Shown here piece by piece: positions 1 through 8,407 of a DNA stretch of 39,225 nt. The stretch lies in assembly GCA_017411435.1 (NCBI GenBank), contig JAFQQD010000019.1, positions 1 through 39,225 of the forward strand, in the 5' to 3' direction. Position 1 is the first letter of the stretch. Each line of letters starts with the position of its first letter. Position numbers and translations under genes: made by a program. The notes beneath the pieces were generated by a model. It saw nothing but the letters and a program-made list of their open reading frames with translations. It did no database searches and had not been told where the DNA came from. Origin of the DNA: Clostridia bacterium (lineage in GTDB: Bacteria > Bacillota > Clostridia > UMGS1883).

Positions 1-128
1 AAGAGTTCTCCAAAGGTTGCAAATCTTTGGGAACAACCTTTGGGAACAGCTAAAAACAACGATATTAAATTTTCAGAAAAGTCCCGTAGAATCAGGGTTT
101 GTAGCGGTTGGGACTTCCTCTAACTTCA
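1..128. mobile_element. possible end of an integrated element beside a broken tRNA-Ser gene
   Basis: No gene is supported here. The stretch holds two direct copies of CTTTGGGAACA (25-35 and 38-48, period 13), a near-copy in inverted orientation (5-15, GTTCTCCAAAG), and the inverted repeat CCAAAGGTTG / CAACCTTTGG (10-19 and 34-43). Further in there is an inverted repeat AAGTCCC / GGGACTT (79-85 and 110-116). It abuts a tRNA-Ser gene that loses its 3' half at about position 129. Short iterated arm-type sites next to an interrupted tRNA are what tyrosine-recombinase attachment regions look like, so I infer the tip of an integrative element or its scar. No integrase is visible because the window starts here. 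Confidence 0.4.
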
Positions 129-172
129 CTACATTTCGAGTGCGGACCCTTCAACCACTTGGGTACATCTCC
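129..172 (-). pseudogene. truncated tRNA-Ser(CGA), 5' half only
   Basis: Reading the minus strand from 172, the sequence gives a 5' acceptor strand GGAGATG, then TA, a D-arm with CCC/GGG stem and AAGTGGTTGAA loop, and an anticodon stem-loop CCGCA-CTCGAAA-TGTAG with anticodon CGA (136-138). This is a typical class II tRNA-Ser start. The anticodon stem is imperfect (one C-A mismatch and one G-T pair). Nothing downstream supplies a long variable arm, a GGTTCGA T-arm or the CATCTCC acceptor complement, so the gene as seen cannot make a tRNA. Either an element has integrated at the anticodon loop and the 3' half lies beyond the window, or this is a relic. Confidence 0.6.
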
Positions 173-175
173 ATA

Positions 176-634
176 TTAAGCTTTTTTGTTGTCGCGCAGG
201 GCAGTAAAAAAGTCCTTAAGCATTGCGGTACATTCTTCTTCCATAATGCCTCCGTAGACCTTCGTAGTGCTGCCGAAATAGGATTTGGAGAAAAGGTCTA
301 TCCTGCCCCCTGCTGCGCCATATTCAGCATCATACGCGCCGAAATATACACTGTGCATTCGTGAATTTATTATTGCGCCACTGCACATTACGCAGGGCTC
401 AAGAGTTACATATAAATCGCAGTCGGAAAGTCGCCAATCAGAGAGAATCTCTGCAGCTTTTCTTATGGCAACAATTTCTGCGTGAAGTGTAGGGTCATGG
501 GAAGCATTACGAAGATTATGCCCCGTGGCAATAACTTCGCCATTTCTTACGATTACTGCACCAACGGGCATCTCGCCTTCTTTTGCGGCAAGTTCTGCCT
601 CATTAAGTGCCATTCTCATAAACTTGTTTTCCAT
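176..634 (-). CDS. tadA: tRNA-specific adenosine deaminase TadA
   Basis: TadA deaminates A34 to inosine in the anticodon of tRNA-Arg(ACG) in the cytoplasm and is usually essential. The protein is 152 aa, normal for the family. The zinc site and catalytic glutamate are visible: HAE at residues 51-53 and PCVMC with cysteines 81 and 84. I chose the ATG at 634 rather than the in-frame GTG at 640, because the GAGGTG ribosome site is well spaced for 634 and nearly touches the GTG. It has its own sigma-A-like promoter immediately upstream and is separated from the TPR gene behind it by a hairpin, so it is probably a single-gene unit. The cytosine deaminase/CodA families are less likely given the TadA-type spacing and context. 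Confidence 0.95.
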   Translation of the reverse strand: MENKFMRMALNEAELAAKEGEMPVGAVIVRNGEVIATGHNLRNASHDPTLHAEIVAIRKAAEILSDWRLSDCDLYVTLEPCVMCSGAIINSRMHSVYFGAYDAEYGAAGGRIDLFSKSYFGSTTKVYGGIMEEECTAMLKDFFTALRDNKKA

Positions 635-649
635 TTTCACACCTCACTT

Positions 650-678
650 ATAATAACATAATAGCATTATCAAGTCAA
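650..678 (-). promoter_or_regulatory. sigma-A-type promoter of tadA
   Basis: On the minus strand TTGACT (673-678) and TATTAT (650-655) are separated by 17 bases. They lie just upstream of the GAGGTG ribosome site of tadA. The match is good by eye, but no start site has been measured. Confidence 0.6.
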
Positions 679-7078: not shown

Positions 7079-7144
7079 AATACACCATCCTTGTGATAAT
7101 AGTATTATTAGCACGAAGAGATTTTATATACTGGAGTTTTATAT

Positions 7145-8407
7145 ATGCACGAAACAGAAAAAGAAATTGAAAAAGTAATACTGTGCGGTGTTCATACTGG
7201 AAGAATCAATACACTTGATGACACGACTGAGGAATCGATGCAGGAACTTTATGAGCTTGCCCGTACTGCTCAGGCGGAAGTTGTCGGAGAGATAATTCAG
7301 AATAAAGACCATCCCGAAAATGCCACCTATTTTGGCGAGGGTAAGATGGAAGAGCTTCGTATTGCGGCAGAAACCTTGGGTGCGACACTTCTTATTTTCG
7401 ATGACGAGCTGACGGGAAGTCAGATACGAAACATTGAAAACTACACACATATCCGTACAATTGACCGAAGCACGCTTATTCTTGACATTTTCGCGCAGAG
7501 AGCCATATCTAAAGAGGGGAAAATCCAGGTTGAACTGGCACAGTTAAAGTATTCTCTTCCCCGCCTTTCAGGTATGGGGGCTGAGCTTTCAAGACTCGGT
7601 GGCGGTATCGGAACGCGTGGCCCCGGCGAAACGAAACTTGAAAGCGACAGACGGCATATTCACAGACGCATAAATTCGCTTGAGGCAGAGCTTCGCGAAA
7701 TTCAGGCACACCGCGATTTGCAAAGAAGCAGACGCGAGAAGGACAATGTCGTTGTAGCCGCGCTTGTCGGTTACACAAACGCAGGTAAGAGCACGATATT
7801 GAACTACTTCACAGACTCAGGCGTGCTTGCTGAAAATATGCTTTTTGCAACCCTTGACCCGACAATGCGAAAGCTTGACCTGCCCGATGGCAGAAACGCT
7901 GTAATCGTGGACACGGTTGGTTTTATCAGAAAACTTCCGCATCATCTTATTGAAGCGTTTAAGTCTACACTTGATGAGGCGGTTTTAGCCGATGTTCTTA
8001 TCCATGTAATTGATTCGTCAAACCCTGAAATGCATACGCAGATGAGGGTCGTAGATGAACTTATACAGACACTTGGTTGCAGGGCACAGAGGATTATCGC
8101 TGTATTCAATAAGTGTGACATTGCTCCTCCCCTTTCTCCGCGTCCTGAAGGCAATTACACCGATTTTATTTCTGTAAGTGCAAAAAGCGGTGAAGGTATG
8201 GAGGAACTTGTGGAGCTTCTCCACGATGCTTTGCCGGGGAAGAAAAAGGAAATTGAGGTGCTTATCCCCTATTCTGACAGTAAAACTGCGGCTCTGCTGC
8301 ACGAAGGCGAAGTAATACTTGAAGAAAGTTATGAGGCTGAGGGCACAAAAATACGCATACTTGCCGATGAGGCGCTGTATGCGAGACTAAGAAACTATAT
8401 CATATAA
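7145..8407 (+). CDS. hflX: GTPase HflX, ribosome-associated
   Basis: HflX binds the 50S subunit and, in several bacteria, splits stalled or heat-damaged 70S ribosomes. It also supports antibiotic tolerance. The 420-residue protein has the N-terminal HflX domain (to about 200) with the glycine-rich signature GGGIGTRGPGETKLE, then a TRAFAC GTPase domain: G1 GYTNAGKST at 209-217, G3 DTVGFIRKLPHHL and G4 NKCD. A short C-terminal domain follows. The start at 7145 is close behind a weak CTGGAG ribosome site. The YigZ-family gene follows after 16 bases, and both end at a strong terminator. Confidence 0.96.
   Translation: MHETEKEIEKVILCGVHTGRINTLDDTTEESMQELYELARTAQAEVVGEIIQNKDHPENATYFGEGKMEELRIAAETLGATLLIFDDELTGSQIRNIENYTHIRTIDRSTLILDIFAQRAISKEGKIQVELAQLKYSLPRLSGMGAELSRLGGGIGTRGPGETKLESDRRHIHRRINSLEAELREIQAHRDLQRSRREKDNVVVAALVGYTNAGKSTILNYFTDSGVLAENMLFATLDPTMRKLDLPDGRNAVIVDTVGFIRKLPHHLIEAFKSTLDEAVLADVLIHVIDSSNPEMHTQMRVVDELIQTLGCRAQRIIAVFNKCDIAPPLSPRPEGNYTDFISVSAKSGEGMEELVELLHDALPGKKKEIEVLIPYSDSKTAALLHEGEVILEESYEAEGTKIRILADEALYARLRNYII

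Follow-up and report, generated by a model that had tools for sequence, protein, structure and literature searches.

A split tRNA-Ser(CGA) gene marks what is very likely the left end of an integrative element that brings its own replacement tRNA in Clostridia

The split tRNA gene beside tadA

The window, a stretch of 39,225 nucleotides from a Clostridia bacterium (GCA_017411435.1), is the entire contig G000:C7, from base 1, of a 75-contig, 2.0-Mb draft genome (G000). Its first genes are chromosomal, comprising a tadA-type tRNA adenosine deaminase (176–640, minus strand; Pfam MafB19-deam / dCMP_cyt_deam_1), a TPR gene, a class II (D/K/N) tRNA synthetase, EF-P and a peptidase U32. Directly downstream of tadA, across a gap of 3 bp, lies the 40-nt 5′ half of tRNA-Ser(CGA) (172–133, minus strand; GGAGATGTACCCAAGTGGTTGAAGGGTCCGCACTCGAAAT), which ends in the anticodon loop, with the anticodon CGA at positions 138–136; the tadA neighbour is conserved in G004, G005, G007, G015, G018, G019 and G026. 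The last eight nucleotides of the half, CTCGAAAT (133–140, minus strand), consist of the 7-nt anticodon loop plus one base and constitute the crossover core. Non-tRNA DNA begins right after the core and reaches the contig start 132 nt farther on (1–132, minus strand; GTAGTGAAGTTAGAGGAAGTCCC...). Within it are two copies of the 10-mer CTTTGGGAAC, at 38–47 and 25–34 (both plus strand), which are putative integrase arm-type sites.

The original prediction for positions 1–172, a tRNA-Ser(CGA) 5′ half followed by unrelated DNA, was confirmed by a genus mate, G005, in which the matching 46 nt (96% identity) open an intact tRNA-Ser(CGA). The predicted interval holds overall, with the tRNA-like part confined to 133–172 and the foreign part to 1–132. 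As had also been claimed, the gene is not restored at this junction, where the 5′ half runs into non-tRNA DNA. An intact tRNA rescued by an odd variable arm was considered and rejected, as neither ARAGORN nor Rfam called a tRNA in the junction region. A search through the other contigs of the 75-contig assembly turned up neither an intact tRNA-Ser(CGA) nor the missing 3′ half, and the assembly yielded no integrase or spare tRNA; the window has no integrase because it is a complete contig beginning at base 1. Broken 5′ halves of chance origin can be excluded, since halves broken at exactly the same loop were present in 12/391 class-level genomes and a reversed control pattern gave 0 matches.

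Both tRNA-Ser(UGA) and tRNA-Ser(GCU) are present in G000. tRNA-Ser(UGA) can probably read UCG by wobble, and the possibility that it may do so already bears on the need for a spare. An earlier concern, that the host's decoding of UCG might hang on the state of the split gene, is softened by the presence of tRNA-Ser(UGA) and by the spare that the element very likely brings.

The element end and complete elements in relatives

Of the split gene and the element, the window shows no more than the 5′ half and the first 132 nt at the element's end. This foreign end recurs with 0–1 mismatch over 90–140 nt in five other contigs: G002 (= L093, SIG431), L090 (IMG/VR), and L091, L092 and L094 (goat, sheep and water deer gut MAGs). 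The tRNA-Ser(CGA) 5′ half preceding the shared end differs in each contig. Several of the contigs stop within the shared end, and the start of the window contig lies 141 nt away from the point at which the tRNA contexts diverge, which suggests that the contig break reflects a shared repeat interrupting a k=141 assembly. Both contigs that extend far enough, L090 and L092, have a second tRNA-Ser(CGA) 5′ half 183 bp past the first core; in L092 this second tRNA is complete and is succeeded by a terminator, a 446-aa tyrosine integrase (Pfam Phage_integrase, E 4e-18) and an HTH_17 (Xis-like) gene. Phage collections yielded tRNA-half matches only, in three phage records, and plasmid collections no match. 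Judged by these sequence comparisons, the foreign DNA in the window is the end of a mobile element, one that would continue like its near-identical relatives and, on the same grounds, very likely carries a spare tRNA-Ser(CGA). The original placement of the element to the left, beyond the contig, is supported.

Relatives were searched through order and class for loci with both ends; all genomes are draft assemblies, probably mostly metagenome-assembled. Complete elements were recovered in G007 (6.7 kb), G019 (9.1 kb), G026 (17.3 kb) and G109 (18.6 kb). Read in the tRNA direction, they begin with the host 5′ half and the core CTCGAAA. Next come a left end containing arm-like repeats, a complete spare tRNA-Ser(CGA), a terminator, further arm-like repeats, a convergent integrase and the cargo; the far end, which again contains arm-like repeats, leads into a second core and finally an orphan host 3′ half lacking any 5′ half. 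The host tRNA is split at the loop in 4/4 complete elements and rebuilt at neither junction, since attL contains no tRNA and attR lacks a 5′ half; the core measures 7–8 nt, CTCGAAA(T), and CTCGAAA is common to every attL and attR junction seen. The integrase is of the tyrosine family, with Pfam Phage_integrase matches in L092, G019 and G131b. Comparison with an empty site, which had been proposed as a check, was possible for G019: joining its flanks produces a tRNA that matches, with 100% identity, the intact gene found at the same tadA locus in a congener, G018. The shared element end and the complete elements thus support the earlier reading of an integration junction in the anticodon loop. 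That reading had placed the missing 3′ half either beyond the element, as is the case in relatives, or within the element as a half of its own; what the elements carry instead is a whole spare tRNA-Ser(CGA) gene.

Arm-type repeats were seen on both sides of the spare. In L092, two copies of the 10-mer CTTTGGGAAC of the window end lie beyond the spare tRNA, and element-specific motifs number 2–3 to the left of the spare, 1–4 to its right and 1–3 at the far end, against a background in the element body of 0–0.17 per 200 nt, a contrast that is indicative, the motifs having been picked by eye after looking. Motif counts were set against the body background because longest-shared-word matching of the arm repeats was significant for some elements (G019, G102 and L092) and not for others.

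Pfam and PADLOC, applied to selected genes, identified mobilization and defence genes and, among those genes, no phage structural genes. The cargo includes the reverse transcriptases Drt3a and Drt3b in the 6.7-kb element of G007 (L158, 2855–6394), an OLD-like ATPase and a DUF234 ATPase in G019, PDC-M30/M41 candidate defence genes in G026 and a type II DNA methyltransferase in G131a. NikA/MobC in G019 and G026, and a relaxase with MobC in G131b, point to mobilizable elements; no mobilization genes were identified in G007, where the whole element was read.

The spare tRNA, nested arrays and competing explanations

The spare tRNA-Ser(CGA) sits ~180–225 bp inside attL, in the same orientation as the host tRNA. 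ARAGORN called it as tRNA-Ser(CGA) at every locus tested and left the attL hybrid uncalled in 4/4 complete elements. In 16/16 related loci, representing seven different acceptor stems, the complete downstream tRNA-Ser(CGA) forms 7/7 acceptor and 5/5 anticodon-stem pairs (the G007 spare, read from GGAGAAG, has its 7/7 acceptor pairs). By the same count the split host halves form 6/7 acceptor pairs in G007, 7/7 in G019, 5/7 in G026 and 6/7 in G109, so that 1–2 pairs have been lost in 3/4 complete elements. By its pairing, the spare appears able to function, unlike the host copy, and it may make up for the loss of the host tRNA.

A terminator-like hairpin is absent from 12/13 left-end units and occurs just after the spare in 11/13. 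Most of the 13 units contain no promoter-like pair better than shuffles, possible exceptions being G006 (1% of shuffles), G026 (6%) and G005 (7%). In the window, a sigma-70-like promoter recognised by consensus match (TTGACT-17-TATTAT, with TG before the −10; 650–678, minus strand) precedes tadA and is a candidate driver of tadA, of the tRNA 5′ half and, via read-through, of the spare. The spare lies on the host-promoter side, in the host tRNA orientation. Because the units have no consistent promoter or terminator, and because of the terminator after the spare and the spare's orientation, read-through from the host tadA/tRNA promoter is the economical explanation, and the spare is probably transcribed in this way.

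At least two consecutive left-end units, each ending in a 5′ half plus core, were found in L091, L094, G263, G289, G036 and G131; in L094 the window's element type is nested inside another type. The simplest reading of such arrays is that a later element inserted into the spare tRNA of an earlier one. The anticodon stems vary among targets (CCGCA, GCGCA, GAGCA and ACTGA), and therefore only the loop is conserved. An alternative account of the tandem ~200-bp units, as mini-cassettes or excision scars, was dropped for most loci, G004–G006 excepted, because the 3′ half with which the downstream tRNA forms perfect pairs is its own and not the host's, and because integrases were found further inside (G131a and G131b), nesting explaining the arrays better. 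Both the complete elements (attL = core + Y) and the arm motifs at the far end contradict the idea that integration normally proceeds by crossover in the core of the spare itself.

Occupancy was counted across the window's family (21 genomes). Eight genomes (G000, G002–G007 and G019) have an element end at the tRNA-Ser(CGA) site and seven (G008, G009, G010, G014, G016, G018 and G020) an intact tRNA-Ser(CGA) without an element; in G001 the sequence stops at the core. G015 (L159/L120) has a single intact tRNA-Ser(CGA) followed directly by an integrase, without a left-end unit. This integrase belongs to the same clade (82% to that of G102), and G015 may be a classical, restored relative coexisting with the spare-bearing type. 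Old tRNA 5′ halves to the left of the unit have decayed in L128 (G006; 1318–1352) and L136 (G005), and the complete tRNA downstream is intact. Separately, a related insert of ~115–130 nt (AAGTGG / AAYCGAG..CGACCGC.TCCTG.GGA..., end ..AAACGGACATA) was noted in the D-arm of an extra tRNA-Ser(CGA) 5′ piece in L183 (G018; reverse complement, 7127–7330) and L059/L135 (G003), with no Rfam match to the insert.

Among the competing explanations, the one that survives best, although improbable, is that G000 retains a remnant, only the ~200-bp left-end unit and spare tRNA having outlived an element whose other parts were lost long ago. Such a remnant would have counterparts in G004, G005 and G006, which have the unit and a complete tRNA with no integrase directly adjoining, and in the decayed old 5′ half of G006; it would also fit a window contig that stops before the spare, in an assembly where no integrase, spare or 3′ half was found. 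However, the window unit hardly differs from its counterparts in five other contigs and so moved recently, and contigs with the unit tend to stop inside it, as would be the case for a repeat in multiple contexts.

It is distinctly less probable that the site is a classical tRNA island, in which the element's matching 3′ half restores the host gene and the fragment in the window is the displaced piece. This is the usual arrangement, according to the IME review (PMC5704250) and the Islander description (PMC4383910); G015 resembles it, and G000 has a case of its own at tRNA-Lys(CTT). The window nevertheless has a 5′ half with its upstream region and then non-tRNA DNA, the same holds for all left ends of this type, and the four complete elements have no whole tRNA at either junction. 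Scant credence attaches to an assembly chimera: the feature does lie at the very start of a draft contig, which begins 141 nt from the divergence of tRNA contexts, 141 presumably being significant as a common assembler k-mer size, but junctions of this type also appear in assemblies that were deposited separately (goat, sheep and water deer gut MAGs, SIG431 and IMG/VR) and in the interior of long contigs, for example G019:C15 and G109:C36. Introns occur in tRNA anticodon loops, but an intron or very long variable arm in an otherwise working tRNA can be dismissed almost entirely here: there is no Rfam match, and in relatives the halves are separated by 7–19 kb that include an integrase, and empty sites exist.

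A proposed replacement mechanism and its relation to known systems

Our preferred explanation, which we hold to be very probable, is that an integrative, probably mobilizable element has its attL at the end of the window and replaces the split tRNA-Ser(CGA) with its own spare. The features on which it draws (split, core, orphan far-end half, spare, arm repeats, empty site and nesting) are each observed in relatives. The element's tyrosine integrase would carry out recombination between an 8-bp core and the anticodon loop of the tRNA-Ser(CGA) gene beside tadA on the chromosome, and integration would split the host gene, its 5′ half being kept at attL and its 3′ half orphaned past attR. A complete tRNA-Ser(CGA) ~180 bp inside attL, in the same orientation, would take over from the lost gene, transcribed by read-through from the host's tadA/tRNA promoter; after it would come a terminator, more arm sites and then the integrase, either directly or past cargo genes. 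The intact spare would present a fresh target, so that later elements could enter and nested left-end arrays accumulate.

The closest known parallel is tRNA-dependent lysogeny, shown by experiment in actinobacteriophages including Fionnbharth and suggested for the Lactobacillus johnsonii prophage Lj965 (Guerrero-Bustamante & Hatfull 2024, PMC10865867), whose authors asked how widespread tRNA replacement is. Common to both are a tyrosine integrase, a core of ~8–10 bp in the tRNA anticodon region, arm-type repeats, a host tRNA rebuilt at neither junction and a whole cognate tRNA brought by the element, and on sequence criteria the Clostridia elements appear to work like tRNA-dependent lysogeny. 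They differ in that, judged by the selected genes scanned, they are not recognisable phages but elements of Clostridia with mobilization and defence genes, in that the target is tRNA-Ser(CGA) and the spare lies ~180–225 bp inside attL between arm repeats, and in that the spare is apparently re-targeted, giving nested arrays, and is probably expressed from the host promoter.

Resemblance to the IMEs of Firmicutes (PMC5704250) extends to the tyrosine integrase, small HTH/Xis-like genes, MobC/NikA and relaxase, defence cargo and tandem accretion. According to that review, IME integration does not disrupt the target, which a repeat restores, whereas the present elements break their target and put a whole spare gene in its place. 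Genomic islands that restore their tRNA target (Islander, PMC4383910) likewise have a tRNA target, a tyrosine integrase and a displaced tRNA fragment at one end; unlike them, the present elements have no restored gene at either junction and share 7–8 nt of loop only, the anticodon stems varying. A search of open-access papers returned no report of an IME replacing its target tRNA with a whole spare, or of spare tRNAs as the next target.

Taken jointly, these points allow a broader reading, which we offer tentatively and rate at somewhat short of even: Clostridia-wide mobile defence islands might survive by gene replacement, each breaking tRNA-Ser(CGA) and supplying a spare that the host promoter would drive across a short left end lacking a terminator. 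With every spare serving as the landing site for the next arrival, elements would stack inside one another, repeatedly replacing the tRNA, and a resident's abnormal exit would deprive the host of that tRNA, giving the element an addiction-like hold. Replacement, rather than restoration, of a disrupted tRNA gains evidence here from another phylum and from conjugation-type elements, and a tRNA gene repeatedly replaced by mobile DNA would amount to a self-renewing landing site for defence cargo. The architecture is recognisable, and hence searchable; junctions of this kind fragment assemblies, and island finders that need a restored tRNA may miss them.

Some further observations concern phages and other tRNA genes. 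Phage contigs of up to 150 kb from IMG/VR (L138, L139, L146 and L148) have a tRNA-Ser(CGA) 5′ half plus core and then non-tRNA DNA, and are possibly phages using the same site. In G000, a 47-nt copy of the tRNA-Lys(CTT) 3′ half beside an XRE-type regulator (G000:C75:6947–7024 and G000:C58:16–91) is the classical restored att site of another element. Two tRNA-like genes with ~45 extra nt in the anticodon region lie at G000:C62:1788–2036, and at least nine tRNA genes are arrayed at G000:C60:4114–5195, on a 5.2-kb contig that probably derives from a large phage.
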